From an uncultured Flavobacteriales bacterium (GTDB lineage: Bacteria; Bacteroidota; Bacteroidia; Flavobacteriales; Crocinitomicaceae): a stretch of DNA of 25,801 nt. A program made the position numbers and the translations under genes. The stretch lies in contig CAMLIF010000052.1 of NCBI GenBank assembly GCA_946479985.1, forward strand, positions 1 through 25,801. Reading direction: 5' to 3'. Shown in pieces: positions 3,830-22,069 of this stretch. A model generated the notes under the pieces. That model saw only the letters and a list, made by a program, of their open reading frames with translations, had not been told where the DNA came from and made no database searches. Positions within the stretch are counted from its first letter, which is position 1; each line of letters starts with the position of its first letter.

Positions 3830-4210
3830 ATGAGAAAAATCCTTTTTTTAATCCTGTTTAGTCATTCGTGCACTTTACATTCCCAGGAGAATCTAAAAAA
3901 CACTTACTGGGTAATGACAAACGAATCGCCTTTCATGATTCCAATGAGTGAGCTGCCCGTTTTGGTTTTTACGAAATGTGCAGACCTAAGTCAAATTCAA
4001 ACCGAAGGAAGAACTATTTTGTCTTTCGAAGATTTTGTGTTTGTTTACACCTATCATCCAGCAACACAAACACAAAATATGCTTACCAGTTTCAGGTATG
4101 AATTTCTTCCTGACAAAAACCAGTTGCACATTCAATATGATCTGAACCGTTCGGGTTATTACACTTTTAAAGTTTCGGAAAACATATTGGAACTTACTTT
4201 AGTTCAGTGA
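3830..4210 (+). CDS. Small secreted protein, paralogue of the gene at 6578
   Basis: The 126-residue product starts with a signal peptide ('MRKILFLILFSHSCTLHS', cleavage before or after Gln19). I do not recognise the family. It is about 62% identical (my hand alignment, 78 of 125 positions) to the 125-residue product at 6578-6955. The most conserved blocks are 'QENLKNT.W', 'IPMSE', 'TKC.DLS.IQTEGR.ILSFEDF', 'TYHPATQ' and 'SFRYEF'. Alternating hydrophobic residues in the last 40 positions suggest a small beta-barrel or lipocalin-like fold, but that is inference. The mature protein has one conserved Cys in 'FTKC'. Its stop is followed by a hairpin shared with the convergent gene. The 10-base sequence TGAATTGAAC lies 29 bases before the ATG, exactly as before the paralogue, which supports both starts. 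Confidence 0.85.
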   Translation: MRKILFLILFSHSCTLHSQENLKNTYWVMTNESPFMIPMSELPVLVFTKCADLSQIQTEGRTILSFEDFVFVYTYHPATQTQNMLTSFRYEFLPDKNQLHIQYDLNRSGYYTFKVSENILELTLVQ

Positions 4211-6577: not shown

Positions 6578-6955
6578 ATGAATAAAATTCTTTTTTTGCT
6601 TCTAATAACTTTTTCTGGCTGTATACACGCTCAGGAAAATCTAAAAAACACCAAATGGCTGCTGGAAGAATCTGGCTTACTGATTCCAATGAGCGAATAT
6701 TCAGTAATTGTTTGTACAAAATGCCACGATCTAAGCGAAATTCAAACTGAAGGAAGGTCTATTTTGTCATTTGAAGATTTTCTGATAGCAAGTACATATC
6801 ATCCGGCCACACAAAAAGAAAATATACTTTGCAGTTTCAGATATGAATTTATCCCGGAAAAGAATCAGCTGCAGATACAATTCGATTTTTCACGTTCGAA
6901 TTATTATACTGTTGAAGTTTCGGAAGAGAAGATGAGACTTACTTTAATTCAATAG
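6578..6955 (+). CDS. Small secreted protein, paralogue of the gene at 3830
   Basis: The 125-residue product has a signal peptide ('MNKILFLLLITFSGCIHA', cleavage before Gln19) and is about 62% identical to the protein encoded at 3830-4210, with one residue missing near position 35. Shared blocks include 'IPMSE', 'IQTEGR', 'ILSFEDF', 'TYHPATQ' and 'SFRYEF'. It carries extra Cys residues after the conserved 'CTKC'. The family is not one I can name; a small secreted beta-rich fold is likely from the residue pattern. It is on the + strand, divergent from the T9SS gene at 4275-6410, with 167 bases between the two starts. TGAATTGAAC lies 29 bases before the ATG, as in the paralogue, so promoter or leader was probably duplicated with the gene. 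Confidence 0.85.
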   Translation: MNKILFLLLITFSGCIHAQENLKNTKWLLEESGLLIPMSEYSVIVCTKCHDLSEIQTEGRSILSFEDFLIASTYHPATQKENILCSFRYEFIPEKNQLQIQFDFSRSNYYTVEVSEEKMRLTLIQ

Positions 6956-7044: not shown

Positions 7045-7360
7045 TTTAAGACAAACTATTCCCGTGAAGCAGGTCAAATACATTCTTCCAATAACGTTTG
7101 CACTACTTGTATTGCTTGGAATAACTGCTGCCTGCAAGGATAAGCCCAAACCTAATGAACCGGCGCCATGTACCTCCTGTGAAACCCGAATGGAAACCAA
7201 AAAATACTTTTTATTTGACGTTGGTTCCTGGTGGGTGTATAAAGAAGAAACTACACATGAAAAGGATTCTATTTATGTAGTTGCATCTGCAAATGATCCG
7301 GCTACACCAAATTTTGATGTGGAATACTACAGCCCATACCAGGATTTTTACTACCACTTT
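7045..7360 (+). repeat. 5' duplicated block, copy 1 (partner 8213-8528)
   Basis: These 316 bases differ from 8213-8528 at only 15 positions by my count (about 95% identical). The block starts just before the GTG at 7064 and covers the signal peptide and the first 99 codons of the lipoprotein gene. Confidence 0.9.
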
Positions 7361-7756
7361 TATCCAATAATTACAGTTTCTACTCAAACGTCAGGTTGCA
7401 GTGATAATGGACTTTCAACGAAGAAATGTATATACATTAAAAAGGAAAAAATAAGACCAAATATTTTTGTGCGTGAAGAACTGTCTTTCTTCAGTCAGTT
7501 TTATAAAGGTGCTGAGACACCAGTTCCGAACATTTATTATTCAGATAACAAACTAATCTTTGAAGAAATTTATAGTAATTATTCCCTTCCTAGTTTAAGT
7601 TTTGGACAAACGTTGAAAGTTCATATTGAACACTCCCAATTGGAAAACGATTCACCGGTTAACCATTATTATGTCAAAGGAGTTGGCCTGATCCGCAAGG
7701 AGATCATAGACAGCAACCAGGTGTGGAACCTGGTAGACTACCACGTAACTCAGTAA
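7064..7756 (+). CDS. Lipoprotein of unknown function, paralogue copy 1
   Basis: The 230-residue product starts at GTG (7064), the only usable start: an in-frame TAG lies at 7022 and there is no ATG or TTG between. It has a lipoprotein signal: Lys2 and Lys5, a hydrophobic core, and 'LGITAAC' with the lipid-bearing Cys at about residue 24. After a Pro/Lys linker comes a 'CTSCETRME' pair of Cys residues, then 'FDVGSWWVYKEE', a motif seen at the beginning of many Bacteroidota lipoproteins of unknown role. The end reads 'YYVKGVGLIRKEI', typical of the same proteins, where it closes a beta-rich domain. It is about 80% identical to copy 2 (8199-8930). The stop is 8 bases from the stop of the antisense XRE gene. 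Surface or periplasmic membrane-anchored location is likely; function is unknown. Confidence 0.88.
   Translation: MKQVKYILPITFALLVLLGITAACKDKPKPNEPAPCTSCETRMETKKYFLFDVGSWWVYKEETTHEKDSIYVVASANDPATPNFDVEYYSPYQDFYYHFYPIITVSTQTSGCSDNGLSTKKCIYIKKEKIRPNIFVREELSFFSQFYKGAETPVPNIYYSDNKLIFEEIYSNYSLPSLSFGQTLKVHIEHSQLENDSPVNHYYVKGVGLIRKEIIDSNQVWNLVDYHVTQ
7666..7756 (+). repeat. 3' duplicated block, copy 1 (partner 8840-8930)
   Basis: These 91 bases differ from 8840-8930 at 3 positions (about 97% identical) and end exactly at the stop codon. The sequence after the stop is not shared. Confidence 0.9.
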
Positions 7757-7764
7757 CTTGTATT

Positions 7765-8007
7765 TTATTTCTTTATCAAAAATTGAATCAAGTCGGCCGG
7801 ATGCATGTCCAATGAATTGGCTAATGCAAATAGAATCTTCAAAGTAATATTCTGTTCGCCTTTTTCAATTCGTTGAATAGTTCGGATGTCAATATCACAA
7901 AGTGAAGACAATGATTGCTGGGTAAGCCCACGACTTAGCCTAATTTCCTTAAGCTTTAAACCGAATTGCTCAACTTCCAATAAATACTTCAACTTGTCCA
8001 CGTTCAA
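7765..8007 (-). CDS. Small XRE-family helix-turn-helix regulator
   Basis: The 80-residue protein is almost entirely one Cro/C1-type HTH domain (about residues 15-75). 'IRLSRGLTQQSLSSLCDID' covers the first helices and 'IRTIQRIEKGEQNITLKI' the recognition helix and following turn; 'LANSLDMHPADL' is the usual end. No other domain is present, so it is likely a simple DNA-binding repressor. No ATG is available in frame: the start is TTG at 8007 or GTG at 8001, right after an in-frame stop at 8011-8013. It sits antisense between two lipoprotein paralogues, and a GACA-N4-TGTC palindrome lies 30 bases before its start, a possible operator. No toxin gene is adjacent. DNA binding is near certain; the targets are unknown. 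Confidence 0.88.
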   Translation of the reverse strand: MNVDKLKYLLEVEQFGLKLKEIRLSRGLTQQSLSSLCDIDIRTIQRIEKGEQNITLKILFALANSLDMHPADLIQFLIKK

Positions 8008-8048: not shown

Positions 8049-8198
8049 ATGTTTGTTTTTATTTTTATATTTACCCTCAAGACATTGAACGTAAATACTT
8101 TATGTTGTTTACACCGTAACTTTGAAAACTGATTTCGAACCTTTGTGTTTTGTTTGCATCATCAAAGAAATAAACCGAACGCACTATTCTTTAGTTCT

Positions 8199-8930
8199 AT
8201 GAAAATTGTACCTTTAAGACAAACTATTCCCGTGAAGCAGTTGAATCACATTCTTCCAATAACGTTTGCACTACTTGTATTGCTTGGAATAACTGCTGCC
8301 TGCAAGGATAAGCCCAAACCTAATGAACCGGCTCCATGTACATCCTGCGAAACCCGGATGGAAACCAAAAAATACTTTTTATTTGACGTTGGTTCCTGGT
8401 GGGTGTACAAAGAAGAAACTACGCATGAGAAGGATTCTATTTATGTAGTTGCATCTGCAAATGATCCGGCTACACCGAATTTTGATGTGAGATACTACAG
8501 CCCATACCAGGATTTTTATTACCACTTTTTTCCTATAATAACCGTGTCCTCGCAAATTTCGGGTTGCAGTGATAATATACTTTCATATAAAAAGTGTATT
8601 TACGTGAAAAATTCGAAATATTCATTAGGAACTGAAACTGATGGTGGTGAAGAAATTTGTTTTTTCAGCCAGTACTATAAAACTGCATCAACCCCAGCTC
8701 CGAATATCCATTTTTCCGACAATAAAATAATTTTTGAGGAAATATATGATACTTATTCATTACCGAGTTTGAGTTTTGGGAAAACACTGAAAGTACATGT
8801 TGAACATTCTCAATTGGAACATGACTCACCAGTCAACTATTATTATGTCAAAGGAGTTGGCCTGATCCGCAAAGAGATCATAGACAGCAACCAGGTCTGG
8901 AACCTGGTAGACTACCACGTAACGCAGTAA
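8199..8930 (+). CDS. Lipoprotein of unknown function, paralogue copy 2
   Basis: This is the paralogue of 7064-7756. From the ATG at 8199 it has 243 residues; the GTG at 8232 (232 residues) aligns with the start of copy 1 and gives a more usual lipoprotein signal, so the true start is open. The lipid-bearing Cys is in 'LGITAAC', followed by 'CTSCETRME', 'FDVGSWWVYKEE' and, at the end, 'YYVKGVGLIRKEI'. The first 99 and last 30 codons are nearly identical in DNA to copy 1, while the middle differs: 'STKKCIYIKKEKIRP' in copy 1 against 'SYKKCIYVKNSKYSL' here, plus a 2-residue net insertion and a 'TDGGEE' segment. No sequence after the stop is shared with copy 1. Location is probably the cell envelope; function is unknown. 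Confidence 0.88.
   Translation: MKIVPLRQTIPVKQLNHILPITFALLVLLGITAACKDKPKPNEPAPCTSCETRMETKKYFLFDVGSWWVYKEETTHEKDSIYVVASANDPATPNFDVRYYSPYQDFYYHFFPIITVSSQISGCSDNILSYKKCIYVKNSKYSLGTETDGGEEICFFSQYYKTASTPAPNIHFSDNKIIFEEIYDTYSLPSLSFGKTLKVHVEHSQLEHDSPVNYYYVKGVGLIRKEIIDSNQVWNLVDYHVTQ
8213..8528 (+). repeat. 5' duplicated block, copy 2 (partner 7045-7360)
   Basis: This is the second copy of the 316-base block. Identity starts abruptly at TTTAAGACAAAC, 14 bases after the ATG at 8199; before that point only scattered matches with copy 1 remain, and the ATG aligns with AAG there. Confidence 0.9.
8840..8930 (+). repeat. 3' duplicated block, copy 2 (partner 7666-7756)
   Basis: This is the second copy of the 91-base block that ends at the stop codon, with 3 differences from copy 1. 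Confidence 0.9.
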
Positions 8931-13493: not shown

Positions 13494-16400
13494 CTATTCT
13501 ACTACAAACTTTTTAGTTGTTGTTTTTCCCTGGTTTGTTACTGTCAGGAAGTAGATTCCACTTTCCCATTCAGAAACTTCTAAAGTTGCTGTACCATAGA
13601 ATGATGTTATTTCTTTCACCTGTGAACCAGACACACTGAAAACGCTGTATGTACTTTCTTCACTGTTCGGAAGAGAAACCGTTACTTGTGTTGATGCAGG
13701 GTTCGGATATAAGTTCAAATCAACCAATTCGTTCTCACCAATTCCTGTGTAATCGATAATGGTGATACTTGTTGTTTCAACTTCGGTACCGCAATCGTTC
13801 GTTAAAGTTACAGTTACTGTAAACGTTCCGTCTTGTGTATACATGTGAGAAACAGAAGCCGGTCCGTTTTGAACAGAGTTTCCGTCGCCAAAGTTCCAAT
13901 CGTAAGAATCAGCATTTTGCGCACCCAGAACAGAGAAGTTCATCATTGGGAAAGATCCCTGAGAATAAATTCCTGTTGCAGTCGGAGCTTCGTTCACATC
14001 CACGTTGATTGTTCCTATTCCCAAACATCCAACAGCGTCAGTTACATAAGCAATGTATGCACCTGCTTCATCTACTTCAATTGTTTGTGTGAATTCGTTG
14101 GAACCACTCCATAAGTATGATGATCCTGTATTTCCTGCATCAAGAGTCAAAGATGTTCCTTCACAAATGGTAGTATCGTTACCCAATTCAACAACCGGAT
14201 TCAAGTTTAAGATCTCGTAAGTTCCGATGTTTTTCATACATGTTCCAGCCTCGTCTTTGGAAATCCAGATATCGTATTCACCAGGTAATAACTGATCGAA
14301 TACGGTTCCTGACTGCCAAGCAGCCGGAGGTGTTGCTGATCCGCCAGCAGTAATTCCATAGTTCAGGTTTCCTGCTGTGATCTCTAAGTTCGAAACCGCC
14401 TGACGTAATGCATCACCACCTGTACCGGCTGAAAACAAATGTTTCCATCCCGTAACATCAGCAGCCATGTAAGCAGCAGGCAACTGAATATCTGTAAACA
14501 CAACTGTTCCGTCAACTGTTACTGTTGCTTTACCATCTGTATCGATTGACAATTCAACCGGTATATCCGTTTTCAATTTCCAAAGTGATGTATTGGAAGA
14601 GTATGCCAGTGTTTGAGGGGTACTTGCCGGACCGAAAGCATTTGTTGCAGTCCATCCGTAAACCAGGTAAATTCCAGCCTGATTGTTATTTTCAGAAGAG
14701 TTACCAGCCGCATCAAAAGACAAACGCAATTTTGTTCCTTTACCGTTATGTCCGGTTCCGTTTCCTGCAGGTGTTGCATCGTCGCCGAAAGAGTACGTCA
14801 ATCCGTCGGCCCCGCCTGTACCATAAGTATTGATTGGCATATCGGCCGTCATATTGAAGGAAACATTCATTGAATTATTCAAACCGGCCGAGAAATTCGG
14901 AACTGTCAGAACAGCATAGCCCGTGTTACCTGTTGCCGAAGGAGTTAATTGAAGTCTTCCATTTGCTACTGAAGCATTTCCGGTTAAAGCAAAATCGGTC
15001 ATTGTGGCCAAATCTGTTAATGGATTTGCGTAAAGCTCTTCAATAGCAATTTGTCCGAATGGATTTGAAAGCGTGATAATTCCCTCTGAGTTACAGTTGT
15101 AATCCAATACAGCCACATCAGCACCAAAACCAATAACGATATCTGTGTAAACAGAATCAATTACATCTGCAATACACGAAGTAGATCTTACCTGGTAAAA
15201 ATGACCATAAGTGCTGTCTTCTGCAGGTGTGAAAGCAAAATCAGATGAAGCGCTCCAATCCTGAAGAACAGTAACTCCATCAGATGCAAGGAAACGATAT
15301 TCCCATGTTCCGCCGTTTGAAATAGTTTCAGGCAAACCAGAAACCGACATTGTAACCAAAGAACCCGCCGCACAGTTTTCTGCAGGATTGTATGAAACAG
15401 AAGAAGGAACCAAAGCCATTGGTGTTACTTTAGCCGATGCAGAAGCGCTGCAACCTGCAGCTGTTGTACCTACAACGGTATAAGTTGTTGTTGCAGTTGG
15501 AACCAGGATTACAGTAGCGTCTGTGGTTGAAGGAGAAAGAAACGTATTCGGGCTCCATAAATATGTATCAGCTCCTGAAGCAGTAATAGTTGCTGTTTCT
15601 CCGTTGCAAATTGCAACATCATCGAAATCAACTGCAACTGTTGGAATTGGATTTAAAACAACATTCACAGAAGCAGCTGTATCTGCTAATCCTGAACTTG
15701 TACAAGTTTGAACAATTCGGTAATCTGATGTTACTGCAGGTGCAGTTGTGTATGACGCTGCTGTCGGACCAGAGATTGTTGACCAACCGGAGCCTGTATT
15801 TTCCTGCCAGATATAAGTTATTCCTGACTCAAATGGTCCGTTGATCATACCAAGGTTCACAGATTGTCCCGGACAAATAGATGCGTCATTAACTGTTGTT
15901 GTAGCATGAGCAGGTGTTCCCGCACAAACCGGAGCGGCTGTCCATTCAAATTGAACATTCGGAGCCCATGTACCACGTGAAATGGCAGTTGGAGGTGTCA
16001 CCGGATCAGGATTTGTTGCATCTGAGTAATAGAATATAGATCTGTTATCCGAACCGTAATTAGAGTATCTCCAGTAGGTTTGAGAACCATAACCAGCTTG
16101 ATTTTCATCAATTCCGATCAAGATATTATCAACACCGTTCCATTGAAAAGGAGTTGACAATGTGATTTCCAACCAATTTCCTGTTGCAGGAAAAGTCACT
16201 GTTCCTGAAAAATTCGTTGACATTCCGGTAGACGAAACCCAATCTGTTGTTGATGTGAAGTTCGTCTTATTCGTATGTGCCATGTGAACTGTCCAATCTG
16301 TTGAATTCGTTGAAGCACCACTATTGAAATAATAGCGAATCTTAGTGATTGTTCCCATAGTAGTTGCACCGGAAGCAACCAAATCTGCCGCGGTATATAT

Positions 16401-16586
16401 ACACTGAGAATAAGAAAAATTATAATACGCCTGAATAGGAGCATTATTAGTAGTTGAGGTACCGGTACCAACTTGTACTGTAGTTTGAGCAGAAGTAATT
16501 CCAATTGTAGACAAGGCGGCAAAGAAAAGTCCGTAGCGCAGTAAGTACAATTTCCAATCACTTCTTAAAAGTAATTTGTTTTTCAT
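13494..16586 (-). CDS. T9SS type A protein with lectin-like and PKD domains
   Basis: The 1030-residue product has a signal peptide ending near 'GITSAQ' (residue 34). Residues about 35-222 form a domain common in flavobacterial exported proteins ('AYYNFSYSQCIYTAADL' to 'GTWAPNVQFEW'). Two Ig-like domains follow ('ASICPGQSVNLG', 'VAICNGETATITASG'). Residues about 500-740 look like an L-type, concanavalin-like lectin domain ('GADGLTYSFGDDATP', 'KGTKLRLSFDAAGN', 'LKTDIPVELSIDTDGKAT'). A PKD domain is at about 880-942 ('SYDWNFGDGNSV'). The C-terminus has the type A signal ('LNLYPNPASTQVTVSL', 'ESGIYFLTVTNQGKTT'). A surface adhesin or glycan-binding protein is likely. The promoter region holds a 16-base box also found before the 1170-residue gene. 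A candidate -7 element, TACTTTAG, is one base off consensus. Confidence 0.94.
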   Translation of the reverse strand: MKNKLLLRSDWKLYLLRYGLFFAALSTIGITSAQTTVQVGTGTSTTNNAPIQAYYNFSYSQCIYTAADLVASGATTMGTITKIRYYFNSGASTNSTDWTVHMAHTNKTNFTSTTDWVSSTGMSTNFSGTVTFPATGNWLEITLSTPFQWNGVDNILIGIDENQAGYGSQTYWRYSNYGSDNRSIFYYSDATNPDPVTPPTAISRGTWAPNVQFEWTAAPVCAGTPAHATTTVNDASICPGQSVNLGMINGPFESGITYIWQENTGSGWSTISGPTAASYTTAPAVTSDYRIVQTCTSSGLADTAASVNVVLNPIPTVAVDFDDVAICNGETATITASGADTYLWSPNTFLSPSTTDATVILVPTATTTYTVVGTTAAGCSASASAKVTPMALVPSSVSYNPAENCAAGSLVTMSVSGLPETISNGGTWEYRFLASDGVTVLQDWSASSDFAFTPAEDSTYGHFYQVRSTSCIADVIDSVYTDIVIGFGADVAVLDYNCNSEGIITLSNPFGQIAIEELYANPLTDLATMTDFALTGNASVANGRLQLTPSATGNTGYAVLTVPNFSAGLNNSMNVSFNMTADMPINTYGTGGADGLTYSFGDDATPAGNGTGHNGKGTKLRLSFDAAGNSSENNNQAGIYLVYGWTATNAFGPASTPQTLAYSSNTSLWKLKTDIPVELSIDTDGKATVTVDGTVVFTDIQLPAAYMAADVTGWKHLFSAGTGGDALRQAVSNLEITAGNLNYGITAGGSATPPAAWQSGTVFDQLLPGEYDIWISKDEAGTCMKNIGTYEILNLNPVVELGNDTTICEGTSLTLDAGNTGSSYLWSGSNEFTQTIEVDEAGAYIAYVTDAVGCLGIGTINVDVNEAPTATGIYSQGSFPMMNFSVLGAQNADSYDWNFGDGNSVQNGPASVSHMYTQDGTFTVTVTLTNDCGTEVETTSITIIDYTGIGENELVDLNLYPNPASTQVTVSLPNSEESTYSVFSVSGSQVKEITSFYGTATLEVSEWESGIYFLTVTNQGKTTTKKFVVE

Positions 16587-16606
16587 GTGTTAATGTTTTT
16601 GGCTAA

Positions 16607-16614
16607 AGTATGAC
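16607..16614 (-). promoter_or_regulatory. GTCATACT octamer upstream of the lectin/PKD T9SS gene
   Basis: GTCATACT on the - strand ends 20 bases before the ATG at 16586 and overlaps the candidate -7 element TACTTTAG. The same octamer lies before the regulator (18398-18405) and before the 1170-residue gene (22023-22030). Confidence 0.35.
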
Positions 16615-16645: not shown

Positions 16646-16661
16646 GACAAAAACGAGACAA
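16646..16661 (-). promoter_or_regulatory. 16-bp tandem-half-site box, copy 1
   Basis: On the - strand the box reads TTGTCTCGTTTTTGTC: two TTGTC half-sites 11 bases apart, one helical turn. It lies 59 bases before the ATG at 16586. The match with 22054-22069 is 15 of 16. It is too far from the start to be the -33 element, so an activator site is the best reading. The rest of the gap (16662-16734) has only a 5-base CCCTG/CAGGG palindrome. Confidence 0.6.
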
Positions 16662-16734
16662 AACGCATAAAGTGTGAGGGAATTTACACCCTGCTCAGGG
16701 AAAGTTTAAAAATCTTTATGGGAAAGTTGGGGAA

Positions 16735-18396
16735 TCAGAGAGATAGAATAAATTTAACCAGATCTTCAGGATGCTCCATATTCCATTTTTTACGTAAGCG
16801 GAGCCCTGTTTTTCGAACGGAATCAGGTGAAATACCCAGAGTACGGGACATTTCAAGATTAGATAAATTCAATTTAATCAATGTGATCAGGCGCAGTTCT
16901 GCATTTGTTAAATCAGGTGAATGCGTAAGTACTTTTGTGAAGAAATTCGGATTCAGTTTTTCAAACAGACTTTTAAACTCCAGCCAATCATCGTCGGTAA
17001 GTAATGTAAACGACTGAAGTTTATCCAGCATCTTCATACGTTCTTCTGAATACTGCTGATTATCTTCCTGGTTAAACTGTTCGATTTCAGCAGTGAGACT
17101 TTCAATCATGGTGTTTTTCTCCATTAAATTGGAAAGCATTCCGCGGAGTTGTGACTCGGTAATTTCCAGCTCCTGTTGTACCCGCTGCCGTTTCAAATCA
17201 GAAAGTTCTTTTTCTCTTCTGCGTTTCCGTATGTTCAATCGCAGAATCCAGATGAACACAATAACAGACAGAATAGTAACCGCAATCAATCCGTAGATCA
17301 GGATTTCGCTGTACCTTTTATTTGTACGCAGAATACTCAACTCAGCCTGCTTTTGCTCAAAGTGGATCTGGAACTCTGTTTTCTTGAGATTCTCCTGGTT
17401 GGTCAACTGTTGAATACTGTCGGAATACAGTCTCGACAGCTTATAAAATTCCAAAGCATCTTTGTAATTCCCCTTTGCCTGCGAAACCGCCGTTTTTGAT
17501 TGGAAAAGTATCCGGTAATTGGATGCATTGTATTCAAGTGTGCTTATCAAACTATCCATCAGCGCCAGTTTTCTTTCGGCCCGATCCAGCATATTCAATT
17601 CAATTTCAATGCGAATCAATAAGTTTAAAGCAGTGATAGCACTTCCATGTTGATTTGTTTCAATACTGATCTTAAAATCCTCATTACACAAAGCATAAGC
17701 CTTATCCAAATCCTTCTCTAAAAAATAAATGTGCCCTAAGTTCCCGGATAACACACCTATCCAGGGCCGGTTATTTGATTTTTCGGCCAGATGAAGTGCA
17801 TACTGAAAATAGTGTTTTGCAGAATCTGTTTGTTGCAGCTCGCGAAAAATAAGTCCGTAGGTGTTAATCAAACCAATCTTAAAATTAACTGCAATACTTT
17901 TGTCTGCCAGTGCCAGCTTTATTTCTCTCCTGGCTTCATTGAACCGCTTGTAATAGAAGAATGCTAATCCATACGACTCATGAAAAGTAGTCAGGAACTT
18001 CTTGTCTTCCGGAACCTCATCTTTTATTGATTGATCTGCCTTGTACAAATAGTAAAACGCATCTTCGGAGTACCCGTAGTTGAACATGCGCTTTCCAATA
18101 TAGGCGGTTAACTCCGAATAATACTTGCCTTTTACTTTCTCCGCTTCTACCGCACAGTATTTATTGATCCTGTTCCAGACAGTCTTATTTTCAAAAAGAT
18201 GGGCCGGATGTTTTTCCAGATACTTTAAAAGCAAAAACGTGGGATCTGAATTATCCGCAAGAATTTTATTAATTTCGGCCTTTCCATGGTCAAATGTTTT
18301 CTGACCGAATGATCTTTCAGCGAAAAAAAGCAGAAAAACAGCAACTAAAGTTAATGCGGTGAATTTTAGCTGGGGCTTAAAAAAGGTTCTCAACAT
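16735..18396 (-). CDS. TPR - transmembrane - LuxR-like HTH one-component regulator
   Basis: The start is the ATG at 18396 (553 residues); an upstream TTG would add 11 residues of little use. An N-terminal signal or membrane segment ('FTALTLVAVFLLFFAERSFG', about 12-31) is followed by about 330 residues of TPR-like helical repeats ('ALHLAEKSNNRPWIGVLSGN', 'LGHIYFLEKDLDKAYAL'). A transmembrane helix is at about 365-386 ('YGLIAVTILSVIVFIWIL'), then a basic and coiled-coil linker, and a LuxR/GerE-like HTH at about 500-545 ('LTNAELRLITLIKLNLS', 'EMSRTLGISPDSVRKTGLR'). There is no receiver or kinase domain, so it probably senses outside the membrane and binds DNA inside, as in related Bacteroidota proteins. 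It lies between two T9SS cargo genes on the same strand, with its own 84-base upstream region. Confidence 0.92.
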   Translation of the reverse strand: MLRTFFKPQLKFTALTLVAVFLLFFAERSFGQKTFDHGKAEINKILADNSDPTFLLLKYLEKHPAHLFENKTVWNRINKYCAVEAEKVKGKYYSELTAYIGKRMFNYGYSEDAFYYLYKADQSIKDEVPEDKKFLTTFHESYGLAFFYYKRFNEARREIKLALADKSIAVNFKIGLINTYGLIFRELQQTDSAKHYFQYALHLAEKSNNRPWIGVLSGNLGHIYFLEKDLDKAYALCNEDFKISIETNQHGSAITALNLLIRIEIELNMLDRAERKLALMDSLISTLEYNASNYRILFQSKTAVSQAKGNYKDALEFYKLSRLYSDSIQQLTNQENLKKTEFQIHFEQKQAELSILRTNKRYSEILIYGLIAVTILSVIVFIWILRLNIRKRRREKELSDLKRQRVQQELEITESQLRGMLSNLMEKNTMIESLTAEIEQFNQEDNQQYSEERMKMLDKLQSFTLLTDDDWLEFKSLFEKLNPNFFTKVLTHSPDLTNAELRLITLIKLNLSNLEMSRTLGISPDSVRKTGLRLRKKWNMEHPEDLVKFILSL

Positions 18397-18397
18397 G

Positions 18398-18405
18398 AGT
18401 ATGAC
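18398..18405 (-). promoter_or_regulatory. GTCATACT octamer at the regulator start
   Basis: The octamer on the - strand ends one base before the ATG at 18396. It shares GTCATACTCA (10 bases) with the copy at 22021-22030. At this place it would be in the leader, or act as an autoregulatory site if the RNA starts nearby. Confidence 0.3.
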
Positions 18406-18480
18406 TATAGTAAACCGAAAGTACAACAATTTACTAAATGTATAGTCGTACAGTTTTCATACGCTATCAGATCTGAGCCA

Positions 18481-21400
18481 TCAGCGTATCAAATTCACAT
18501 GTCCAACGGCAGTTTCTTTACTGTCGTTCTCAATTAATCCGAATGTCAGTTTCCAGATGTAAGCCCCTTCTTTGGCCAGTTCATTACTGTAGGTTCCATC
18601 CCACCCTTCCGTGATATCAGAGCTTGAGAAAACCAATTCTCCCCAACGGTCATAAATCTCAAGAAGATAATCGTTCTCATCCATTCCAGCCGTCATTACC
18701 GGTCTGAAAACCGGGTTGTATTCATCATCGTCTGGTGTAAACGTATTTGGAACATAATACAGCAGCTGGTCTTTTACCAAAATGGTTTTATAGGTTGTAT
18801 CAGAACAGCCGAAATTGGTTGTAACGATCAATTCGACCAGGTAACTGCCAATTTCTCCAATTGGAAAATCATGAACGGGGTTTTCATTCGCCGAAGTACC
18901 GCCGTCACCAAAATTCCAGGCACTGAAATCATGGTTTTGAGATTCGTTATCGAAATTAACCGTAGGACCGTCGGAGTAAACCTGCTGCGGACCGTAATCA
19001 AATGCGGCAACCGGAACCGGATGAACACAGATCATATCGTTTAATGTTAATGTTGTTGTACACAGTCCATCTGAAACAGCCGTAAGTGTAATGTCGTAAC
19101 AAGCTGCATCGGGATAGTTGTTATTGACATCTGCAAAACTGCCTGAAGTTGCTCCGTTTCCTAAATCCCAGCTATAAATAGTTACACCCTGAACAGTACT
19201 CGCGTTTGTGAAATTAACCTCTAAAGGCTGACATCCTTCGGTTTTATCTGAAATGAAATTAACCACAGGGACAGCAGTTATTTTGACAAGAATGGTGGTT
19301 GTGTCCTGGACACATCCCGGATCTGCAGGCAAAATGTAATTAAAGGAATAATTGTCATGAGAAACATTTGTCAAATCGAAAACATTCGTTGCGGTATTGA
19401 AGTTGCCTACCGGTACATTTGCCGATTGTTCCCAGTACCCCGTAATTGGTTCAAACGGATGATTGATGTAAGGACTGAAATCTTCTGACGTTCCCGATAC
19501 ATTACAAAAATGCAAGCTCTGATCCGGAGCAGCAACGGGTTGTTGATGAATAGTTAAACTCAGTTGAGCCGTATCATTCGGACAATAAGTTCCGTGAACG
19601 ACGTATTCAAAATCAAAAGTTCCTGCATCACCAGTCAAAGTCAAATCGCCATTGCCAGCAAGGGTTCCGTTAAATCCTGCTGACAGACTTTCCCAGGTTC
19701 CACCGGCATCAGCACCTGCAGAAAGCAGACCTGAAAGTGCATAGTTTGTATTCGTTGAACAAGAGAAATCGGTGCTGTCATTACCTGCCAACAATAAATC
19801 CTCAAAAGTTACTGTTGCATTATCTGTTCCGCTGCAGCCAAATTGATTGGTAACAACAACAGTGTGATTTCCTGAAACGGTAACATCTAAAGTCTGTGAA
19901 GTTTCACCTGTATCCCATGAATAAGTCATTCCAGCATTTCCGGCGTCTAATGTAACGACCGTTCCCTCGCAATGATTCTGGTCCGGTCCTAGATTTACTA
20001 CAGGATTCGGGCTATAACTTACAACAATTGTATCATACGAATAGCAAACCGGTCTGAAGGTAATATCGTCCAAGGCAAAATCGTTTCCGGCCCCGTTTAC
20101 GTTCTGATTAACAATACAGATCTGGGCAGAAGTGCTTGCTCCCGATTGCCATACTTGTGTATTTTGTGACCAGCTGCAGCCTGTAATGGACGGTGAAAAA
20201 ATAGGTCCAAGCTGAACATTGTTGATGTTAAACTGCAATTGCGCAACCGGCTGACCGTTTTCAACAGAAGTGACCCATGTTCCGAATTGATATGAAGTAT
20301 TGGGCTGAACAGGAACATTTTGACACCAAACCTGCGTATTGGCAGTGGAAGCGCCATTCACAACAAACTGATTTGTTCCCGGAGCCGCGGTATGATCTGC
20401 ACACGCATTGAAATTGTTATGTACCAAATTAGGCGACGTTGTAATAGCGTATGTCCCCGGATTTGAAAGCAAGCCGTAAGTACCGCCGTTACCCGGAATG
20501 TACTGTGTTGTAAATCCCGAATTTCCGGATTCAAAACCACCATTAACGATCTGGTTTGCTCCGAGTGTACCAACTTTTACCCAGTATGTACCTCCCGGGT
20601 TTGTCACAAACTTATTCGGGCCAGTAGAACCGTTGTTCCATTGATAAGTATCGTAAACTCCCGCGTTCAGGGTTAATGTTTGCCCGATACAAAGCGTGGT
20701 ATCGTTTCCCAAATCTACTTCCGCAATATTCCCGATGATCAATGTGAAATTGGCGACATCGGCCGGGCAAGCTCCATTTGCAGGGAGCGAATAAGAAAAT
20801 GTATAAGTTCCCGGGTTCACTGAATTTGTATTCCAGTTAGCGCTTGCAGGGGTAAATCCTCCGGAAGGCGTTGCAGTTGTTTCCGTCCAGGTTCCGCCAG
20901 CTGTTGCACCGGCTGAAAGAAAACTATTCAGATTAACAACCGGTCCGGGACCGCAATAAGAAGCTCCATTGTCGTTTCCTGCATTTGAAGCGGTTGAAAC
21001 AGTAATAGCAACTGTTTCATTGTCTGAACATCCAACTGCGCCGTCGTAAATGTAAACGGTTTGAGAAGTTGTAATTACTGAACCGGTTGCAAGCATTGTT
21101 CCCGTTCCGTTTGGCCCAGTATAATAATGCTGATTTCCGGAAAGTGAAGTTCCTGTAATTACAGGCAGGGTATATGTTCCACAAACGGAAATTGGGCCAA
21201 GCGGATTAATATTCGGAGTAGCTACTAAATTTACCTGGATTGTTGCTACCGAATCAGGACAGGTTCCGCCGCCATCGATTGTATAAGTATATGTTCCGTT
21301 GGTATTTGTTCCCTGAACAAAAGTCCCTAAATACCCGTTTTGCAGAACCGAAGGACCAGTCCAGGTTCCTGCGTTAGAAAGACCCGAAGTTATTTGAGGA

Positions 21401-21993
21401 TACAAATCTATATTTCCCGTTCCGGCACATTGATTCAAAACGGAGTTGGTAGCTGCAGGAGTACAAACCGAAAGTGTCAATTCATCCAATCCAGCATCAT
21501 TACCCGGCCCGCCAGGCGTATTTGTCAGTATTTGGAAAGAAATGTTCGAAGTAGTTGAAGTAAACGCAGGCATAATAACATTTTGCCAGGTGCTGGTTGT
21601 TACAACCGTTTGCGTTGAGATTACCAATCCATTTCCGTCCAAAACATTGAAAGTCATATTATTGGATGAAGTAAACGCATCTCTTGCCCACATGGAAAAA
21701 CGGTAGCTTGCTCCGGGACAAATATCGGTAAAAGGCTGATTATAAACCAGTCCAGAAACACCGTCTGCAAAATTCAGGTACAATCCGCGGGTTCCGGCAT
21801 GAACACATCCGGCAAAAGTTTGCGGCGTATTCTGATAAGTGGTTCCGGGAATGATGTATGGAATTACCGTTGTGTATTCAAAGTTATCGTAAAAATGTGT
21901 CGACCACGTGCATTGTGCTTTCATCGAAAGTGACCACAAAATGCTCACTATGAAAAGTCCTGTTCTCTGAAAAATATATAATCGTTGCTTCAT
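18481..21993 (-). CDS. Large T9SS type B protein with galactose-binding-like and PKD domains
   Basis: The 1170-residue product has a signal peptide ending 'SLSMKAQ' (about 27). Residues about 28-182 form a jelly-roll, carbohydrate-binding-like domain ('HAGTRGLYLNFADG', 'PGASYRFSMWARDAF', 'DAGLDELTLSVC'), and a second one lies at about 483-650 ('VNGGFESGNSGF', 'QPNTSYQFGTWVT', 'NDFALDDITFRPVC'). Between and after them are Ig-like modules with 'VDLGNDTTLCIGQTLTLNAG'-type starts. Two PKD domains are at about 909-1070 ('IYSWDLGNGATSG', 'FSAWNFGDGGTS'). The end ('VPNTFTPDDDEYNPVF', 'IYDRWGELVFSS', 'GWDGTYSNELAKEGAYIWK') is the gliding-motility-associated type B sorting domain. It is probably a surface adhesin or glycan-binding protein. 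Its promoter region carries a full-consensus -7 element and the 16-base box shared with the gene at 13494-16586. Confidence 0.94.
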   Translation of the reverse strand: MKQRLYIFQRTGLFIVSILWSLSMKAQCTWSTHFYDNFEYTTVIPYIIPGTTYQNTPQTFAGCVHAGTRGLYLNFADGVSGLVYNQPFTDICPGASYRFSMWARDAFTSSNNMTFNVLDGNGLVISTQTVVTTSTWQNVIMPAFTSTTSNISFQILTNTPGGPGNDAGLDELTLSVCTPAATNSVLNQCAGTGNIDLYPQITSGLSNAGTWTGPSVLQNGYLGTFVQGTNTNGTYTYTIDGGGTCPDSVATIQVNLVATPNINPLGPISVCGTYTLPVITGTSLSGNQHYYTGPNGTGTMLATGSVITTSQTVYIYDGAVGCSDNETVAITVSTASNAGNDNGASYCGPGPVVNLNSFLSAGATAGGTWTETTATPSGGFTPASANWNTNSVNPGTYTFSYSLPANGACPADVANFTLIIGNIAEVDLGNDTTLCIGQTLTLNAGVYDTYQWNNGSTGPNKFVTNPGGTYWVKVGTLGANQIVNGGFESGNSGFTTQYIPGNGGTYGLLSNPGTYAITTSPNLVHNNFNACADHTAAPGTNQFVVNGASTANTQVWCQNVPVQPNTSYQFGTWVTSVENGQPVAQLQFNINNVQLGPIFSPSITGCSWSQNTQVWQSGASTSAQICIVNQNVNGAGNDFALDDITFRPVCYSYDTIVVSYSPNPVVNLGPDQNHCEGTVVTLDAGNAGMTYSWDTGETSQTLDVTVSGNHTVVVTNQFGCSGTDNATVTFEDLLLAGNDSTDFSCSTNTNYALSGLLSAGADAGGTWESLSAGFNGTLAGNGDLTLTGDAGTFDFEYVVHGTYCPNDTAQLSLTIHQQPVAAPDQSLHFCNVSGTSEDFSPYINHPFEPITGYWEQSANVPVGNFNTATNVFDLTNVSHDNYSFNYILPADPGCVQDTTTILVKITAVPVVNFISDKTEGCQPLEVNFTNASTVQGVTIYSWDLGNGATSGSFADVNNNYPDAACYDITLTAVSDGLCTTTLTLNDMICVHPVPVAAFDYGPQQVYSDGPTVNFDNESQNHDFSAWNFGDGGTSANENPVHDFPIGEIGSYLVELIVTTNFGCSDTTYKTILVKDQLLYYVPNTFTPDDDEYNPVFRPVMTAGMDENDYLLEIYDRWGELVFSSSDITEGWDGTYSNELAKEGAYIWKLTFGLIENDSKETAVGHVNLIR

Positions 21994-22010
21994 TATCCTG
22001 CTACTAACAA

Positions 22011-22018
22011 CAAAATTA
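22011..22018 (-). promoter_or_regulatory. -7 element TAATTTTG of the 1170-residue gene
   Basis: TAATTTTG on the - strand matches TAnnTTTG fully and ends 17 bases before the ATG at 21993. No TTTG is found at the -33 place, which would fit a promoter that needs an activator. Confidence 0.6.
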
Positions 22019-22022
22019 CGTG

Positions 22023-22030
22023 AGTATGAC
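22023..22030 (-). promoter_or_regulatory. GTCATACT octamer upstream of the type B T9SS gene
   Basis: The octamer lies 29 bases before the ATG at 21993 and 4 bases upstream of the -7 element, close to the place where a -10 extension or operator would sit. See the copies at 16607 and 18398. Confidence 0.35.
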
Positions 22031-22053
22031 GCCAGAGTTGCTTAAATATAAAG

Positions 22054-22069
22054 GACAAAAACGGGACAA
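22054..22069 (-). promoter_or_regulatory. 16-bp tandem-half-site box, copy 2
   Basis: On the - strand it reads TTGTCCCGTTTTTGTC, one base different from copy 1 at 16646-16661, again with two TTGTC half-sites 11 bases apart. It lies 60 bases before the ATG at 21993 and about 35 bases upstream of the -7 element, a typical place for an activator. Confidence 0.6.

Follow-up and report, generated by a model that had tools for sequence, protein, structure and literature searches.

Two T9SS cargo genes of an uncultured Flavobacteriales bacterium (Crocinitomicaceae; contig CAMLIF010000052.1) are preceded by nearly the same 16 bp, which raises the question of whether this box is an operator and, if so, which protein binds it. 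The window, i.e., the whole stretch of DNA analyzed, comprises 25,801 nucleotides, and the following features are relevant, all on the minus strand:

13494–16586: gene of a 1030-aa T9SS type A surface protein (PKD, Por_Secre_tail, weak Ig-like), the second boxed target.
16646–16661: box A, TTGTCTCGTTTTTGTC, between the regulator, whose stop is 73 bp away, and the 1030-aa T9SS gene, whose ATG follows after 59 bp.
16735–18396: regulator gene between the boxed genes, 553 aa from its ATG; the ORF opens at 18429.
18481–21993: gene of a 1170-aa T9SS type B (CHU_C) surface protein with PKD domains, likely the first gene of the unit holding the regulator.
22054–22069: box B, TTGTCCCGTTTTTGTC, with two TTGTC half-sites, 60 bp before the ATG of the 1170-aa T9SS gene.

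Both 16-mers were located exactly where the first-pass annotation had placed them, 59 and 60 bases before the genes of the 1030- and 1170-residue proteins, whose ATG codons lie at 16586 (box A) and 21993 (box B). The forward-strand letters are GACAAAAACGAGACAA for box A and GACAAAAACGGGACAA for box B; the sequences listed above are read in the gene direction. The TTGTC half-sites are spaced by 11 bp, start to start, in both. The assignment of the two genes as T9SS cargo was borne out by their C-terminal sorting domains: type A for the 1030-aa protein (PF18962, 56.2 bits; TIGR04183, 55.2 bits) and type B for the 1170-aa protein (PF13585, 48.2 bits; TIGR04131, 43.4 bits), all above the cut-offs. 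No third match with at most three mismatches was found in the window, so the remaining T9SS genes of the window lack the box, as had been claimed.

Taken by itself, the window does not distinguish the pair from coincidence. It contains 35 independent pairs of 16-mers that differ at no more than one position (a count on which the duplicated genes of the window also bear), whereas 10 random windows of the Markov-1 type contained 5 to 20 (mean 10.7). At three mismatches or fewer, at least two matches were obtained in 34 of 100 shuffles. Judged on the window alone, a chance match between two AT-rich intergenic regions is within reach, and the significance of the box comes from the relatives. There, its position, its spacing and its distance to the −7 element are conserved in diverged genomes; these comparative data refute a chance origin, to which we assign a negligible probability. 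A scan for sigma70-type promoters and terminators, which was not made for this phylum, gave no excess over shuffles (12 vs. a mean of 20.9, and 8 vs. 7.2). Elsewhere in the window, two closely similar lipoprotein-like genes (7064–7756 and 8145–8930) flank a small opposite-strand HTH_3 gene (7765–8007), and the genes at 3830–4210 and 6578–6955 encode proteins of 126 and 125 aa that resemble each other and are probably secreted.

The comparison covered 28 regulator loci (the window, L001–L010 and L183–L199; L200 repeats L005), which are not independent, since they include close relatives such as L008/L010, L184/L185 and L005/L187. In 25 of the 28 loci, a same-strand TTGTC-N6-TTGTC box lies between the regulator, whose stop it follows by 9 to 161 bp, and the next gene; 24 of these boxes are exact, and that of L003 has one mismatch. 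The link of the box to the neighboring HTH gene (16735–18396), whose HTH domain the first-pass annotation had named for a footprint or gel shift, thus holds in relatives. The gene following the box was a T9SS type A gene of 994–1030 aa in 22 of these 25 loci. In the other three, it was split into two frames (the 1030-type gene in the assemblies of L001, 11044–14077, and L184, seen as adjoining matches) or was a type A gene of 536 aa (L197). The loci without a box after the regulator are L002, where the box only precedes the 1174-aa gene; L198, where the contig end cuts the regulator and the same stretch has a box before a type A gene of 1361 aa; and L199, a second regulator copy in genome G007 with only an imperfect upstream box (one mismatch). 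A profile made from 47 sequences and run against genome contigs yielded 10 loci, all labelled Flavobacteriales, Crocinitomicaceae, Fluviicola, Lishizhenia or Taishania, and boxes were present in these. No box was found at L292, which carries a distant regulator homologue.

The upstream side of the regulator gave a similar picture. The start of an ~1170-type gene was visible there in 15 loci, and an exact box preceded it in 13; the exceptions were L199, with one mismatch, and L196, where the box was missing before both ~1170-type genes. An ~1170-type gene is the immediate same-strand neighbor of the regulator on this side in 14 loci, and in 12 of them the two are 4 to 133 bp apart. These short gaps make co-transcription likely in those loci; the gap in the window is 84 bp. 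Small ORFs were called between the two genes in L001 and L183, and a small opposite ORF in L190. A third cargo gene further on, of the ~660-aa type B, had the box in 3 of 10 loci. The regulator clusters contain one to four boxed promoters. Half-sites repeated three times in 11-bp steps were seen in L193 (8237–8263) and in L003 (4982–5008, the middle one being an imperfect CTGTC), which suggests that the site may be an extendable array.

One spacing of the half-sites stood out. Exact TTGTC pairs at 11 bp, start to start, occurred in 40 of 53 upstream regions of cargo orthologues as compared with 5 of 221 other upstream regions, and any other spacing from 5 to 30 was found at most three times in the same 53. 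The tandem geometry of two TTGTC half-sites 11 bases apart, as first described for the window, therefore recurs in relatives. The five pairs among the other upstream regions all belong to T9SS type A genes (L005, L187, L191, L197 and L198), and the 13 cargo-orthologue regions without a pair are mostly those of ~660-type genes and of L196. The letters following each TTGTC are commonly YC. The conserved core is TTGTC-N6-TTGTC, roughly TTGTCYC-N4-TTGTCYC; this part of the 16-base consensus stood, while its full length turned out to be too narrow.

We also considered that the boxes might be duplication relics of one ancestral T9SS promoter. Tandem ~1030-type genes do occur in some clusters (L189 and L192; two in L074), but the targets differ in type (A and B), the TTGTC pairs persist although spacer and flanks differ, extended similarity around the boxes is absent, and the box also precedes cargo that does not match the 1030-aa protein at 1e-30. 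This origin is very improbable, in keeping with the earlier statement that the pair is not simply a recent duplication.

A second feature, absent from the first-pass annotation, is common to both window promoters, namely a −7-like element exactly 35 bp past the box, on the minus strand in both cases:

16603–16610 (read 16610–16603): TACTTTAG, a −7-like element whose start is 35 bp beyond box A.
22011–22018 (read 22018–22011): TAATTTTG, a −7-like element whose start is 35 bp beyond box B.

The Bacteroidetes −7 consensus is given as TAnnTTTG (PMC7366714). We collected 54 distinct intergenic boxes before T9SS genes and counted a −7 match when at least 5 of 6 letters agreed. The element started 35 bp past the box in 27 of the 54 promoters, with 35 hits at 34–36 bp; in 500 shuffles, the counts reached no more than 6 at any offset. 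A start at 25 bp was found in 7 promoters, which are related ~1170-type promoters (L074, L183, L184, L185, L189, L190 and L192) and not seven independent events. The Bacteroidetes primary-sigma promoter feature, TAnnTTTG at a fixed place, was thus present as a proposed −7 element on the basis of sequence match. The two distances differ by ten bases. As this is roughly one turn of the helix, the box would present the same side to the polymerase in both cases. From the box end to the start codon, 47–73 bp were measured in 43 of the 54 promoters (range 16–172). The box itself was rejected as a −33 element, the distance from its last TTG to the −7 element being 37 bp.

This arrangement bears on the sign of the regulation, which cannot be read from the sequence, so that the TPR-HTH regulator might also bind the box as a repressor. 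The whole of the box, however, is situated upstream of the proposed core promoter, at a constant distance of 35 or 25 bp, as is usual for activators, whereas the sites of repressors are more often found overlapping the core promoter or downstream of it. We consider repression improbable and activation the preferred reading.

An AAGCAAC stretch was observed between the box and a −7 element ~25 bp on in the ~1170-type promoters of L074, L183–L185, L188–L190 and L192; it is also found before the 1170-aa gene of the window, there with the −7 element 35 bp on. Covariation between the half-sites was tabulated for 52 of the 54 promoters (L010_7 and L100_5 left out). The permutation counts were 0 and 3 of 5000 for the 52 rows but rose to 440 and 744 of 5000 when identical combinations were merged, leaving 23; the covariation was then not significant and was not used as evidence.

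To see how far the box extends, TTGTCBN4WTTGTC was counted in ten genomes, which had been selected for carrying the regulator. There were 76 matches, as compared with 62 for the pattern read backwards and 71 for a spacing-12 control; the closeness of the raw counts (76 vs. 71) implies that genome-wide raw matches are mostly noise. The context of the matches was different. When 40 of the 71 spacing-12 matches were examined, 7 were intergenic, as compared with 45 of the 76 spacing-11 matches (Fisher p 1.5e-5), and a same-strand gene start lay within 200 bp of 4 and 39, respectively. The proposed enrichment before T9SS-cargo genes was also confirmed, with 23 of 76 matches vs. 1 of 40 controls (Fisher p 2e-4), the T9SS calls being made with profiles grown from the window's own sorting domains. 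The remaining 31 spacing-11 matches were inside genes. Eight off-cluster T9SS genes with an intergenic box were found, in G001, G004, G008 and G010. A genome-wide regulon was not seen: in four further genomes with the regulator, G061, G072, G091 and G099, five of the six off-cluster strict matches examined lay inside genes. Of the new surface-protein regulon suggested by the first-pass annotation, the T9SS-cargo targets therefore hold, while its extent is small and mostly limited to the regulator's own cluster.

A box also precedes a non-T9SS gene with weak TPR matches at L083:2996–3011 (G003) and L071:2604–2619 (G001, a short ORF). Its product begins MKPS.ELFKL.KSL.KSEKRFFKLS, and in G003 a −7 element follows 36 bp on; the gene is possibly an extra target.

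The distribution of the box across genomes followed that of the regulator. The regulator was detected (E ≤1e-40) in 25 of 200 family genomes, and the strict box (TTGTCYNGNWTTTGTC) was present in 21 of these 25 (39 boxes) as compared with 16 of the 175 others (21 boxes); the Fisher p is about 8e-15, with no correction for the kinship or the size of the genomes. In the regulator-free genomes, 17 of the 21 boxes were coding, and the other 4 had no same-strand gene start (≥80 aa) within 200 bp. The backwards control pattern had 23 matches in the 200 genomes, 15 in the 175 and 8 in the 25. These coding positions and control counts place the box near noise level where the regulator is absent. Among 399 genomes drawn from the order, 26 matched the regulator at 1e-30, these being the 25 already known and the weak homologue of G316, at whose locus no box was found.

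Two dissociations separated the regulator from the cargo. G021, the single regulator-free genome with a full cargo orthologue, carries an orthologue of the 1030-aa protein with 50% identity (E 1e-292). The regulator was not detected in this genome at 1e-40, and the region upstream of the orthologue has no box. A direct search of 18 kb there found 1030-type and 1170-type sequences and did not find the regulator; the only box-like match in this stretch was imperfect and inside the 1030-type gene. Conversely, L005, L187 and L191 have both regulator and box, although their cargo genes of 994–995 aa gave no match with the 1030-aa protein at 1e-30. It is thus the regulator, and not the cargo family, that the box seems to track.

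These observations also weigh on the possibility that the box is a real operator bound by another regulator, e.g., an OmpR/PhoB-family response regulator, with the TPR-HTH gene being a neighbor or co-target. Tandem repeats at 11 bp are typical of OmpR-type binders: PhoB binds direct repeats 11 bp apart, and the OmpR/PhoB and SARP binders are winged-helix proteins. For SARP (OmpR-type), direct repeats 11 bp apart are described upstream of or within the promoter (PMC10936776). Against another binder, no other gene of constant size was found beside the boxes in loci that were chosen by the regulator and whose neighbors were mapped by size and T9SS tail. Furthermore, box and regulator co-occur across genomes, and both are missing beside the G021 cargo gene. 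A different binder is therefore rather improbable, and the TPR-HTH regulator remains the favored candidate.

The structure of this protein was examined by modelling and profile searches. From the N- to the C-terminus, it appears to contain a signal peptide, a TPR solenoid, one membrane helix, a long helix and a C-terminal LuxR/NarL-like HTH. The putative signal peptide and membrane helix were assigned by eye from the sequence and the model, in which the hydrophobic N-terminus ends with FGQ and a hydrophobic stretch lies near 379–399. The model was helical throughout except for isolated bridges. A fold search with the whole model returned TPR proteins only; such a search barely tests the HTH, which was therefore modelled alone and gave a four-helix LuxR/NarL fold. 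The model of the C-terminal domain was all-helical, without strands and hence without the beta wing of a winged helix. Pfam GerE (PF00196) did not match the window regulator and reached 14.4 bits vs. a cut-off of 23.5 in one of four relatives; judged by the model, the HTH would work like PF00196 and is simply not filed there. No NTPase family was found in the Pfam scan of the regulator at E 0.01. The recognition-helix stretch is nearly invariant among 47 aligned regulator sequences. The subclade of L005, L187 and L191 has SV[KQ]RT in this stretch and half-sites reading TTGTCGG rather than mostly TTGTCYC; this single subclade may be taken as a hint that the recognition helix covaries with the half-site.

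With the above results in hand, we propose that the box is most probably the operator of a dedicated, mostly local regulon and the activator site of the TPR-membrane-HTH regulator lying between the two cargo genes. The regulator would be an inner-membrane protein whose TPR sensor faces the periplasm and whose LuxR/NarL-like HTH faces the cytoplasm. On the TTGTC half-sites, two HTH subunits, and sometimes three, would sit side by side, one per 11 bp and on the same DNA face. The bound site, centered about 43 bp upstream of the −7 element, would allow the regulator to recruit RNA polymerase to the promoters of the T9SS surface proteins. As its gene lies close behind the boxed 1170-aa gene, the two are probably co-transcribed, which would give positive feedback. 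More tentatively, the regulator may act as a one-component switch in the membrane that senses the condition of the cell envelope and directly induces the adjacent surface proteins, one subunit per 11-bp repeat, the feedback creating an on/off surface state. Rap and NprR hold signal peptides in a TPR groove, and a peptide in the periplasmic TPR groove, or unsecreted T9SS cargo, could be the input of such a switch.

To our knowledge, the switching of individual T9SS cargo proteins has been little studied, and no literature on the TTGTC box or the regulator was found by title or abstract start in open-licence PMC. An operator, its core promoter and its most likely binder can here be named together from sequence, which makes a cargo-specific regulon directly testable; other TPR-HTH regulators of Bacteroidota might be readable likewise.

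Several known systems share parts of this arrangement. Activators of the ToxR/CadC type have a periplasmic sensor, one membrane helix and a cytoplasmic DNA-binding domain. The putative layout of the regulator is the same, but the chain order is opposite, its HTH being C-terminal, and the HTH fold differs. BT_3442 is described as a multi-domain protein with TPRs, encoded in one cluster with proteins predicted to be at the surface or to form pores (PMC2954219). The NCBIfam profiles of the BT3442 family and of P. gingivalis FimS matched the regulator weakly, with 49.8 of 940 and 40.6 of 600 bits, far below the cut-offs. Both matches span the TPR and the membrane helix, and that of BT3442 also the HTH region; FimS is named a histidine kinase, whereas the regulator ends in a DNA-binding domain. 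PorXY-SigP resembles the proposed system in controlling T9SS-related genes. PorX footprints two sites at porT, for which the retrieved part of the report gives no consensus (PMC8050853). The PorXY-SigP targets described in the retrieved literature are mainly T9SS machinery genes, reached via a response regulator and an ECF sigma factor, whereas we propose a one-component regulator adjoining its cargo genes. The OmpR/PhoB and SARP proteins are the nearest geometric parallel, as 11-bp direct repeats were found in 40 of the 53 upstream regions, although those binders are winged-helix proteins and the modelled regulator HTH is all-helical and LuxR/NarL-like. MalT is a cytoplasmic protein with a LuxR-type HTH. 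Its TPR-type sensor is joined to the DNA-binding domain, and its multimers bind several boxes cooperatively and recruit polymerase (PMC4381067). MalT has a STAND ATPase, whereas no ATPase domain was detected in the regulator, which has a putative signal peptide and membrane helix instead. Going by the profile scan and the model, membership in the MalT/LAL group fails on the STAND NTPase and that in the OmpR/SARP group on the winged helix. Nevertheless, MalT, with its TPR-type sensor, its DNA-binding domain and its multiple boxes, is the nearest functional parallel of the regulator.
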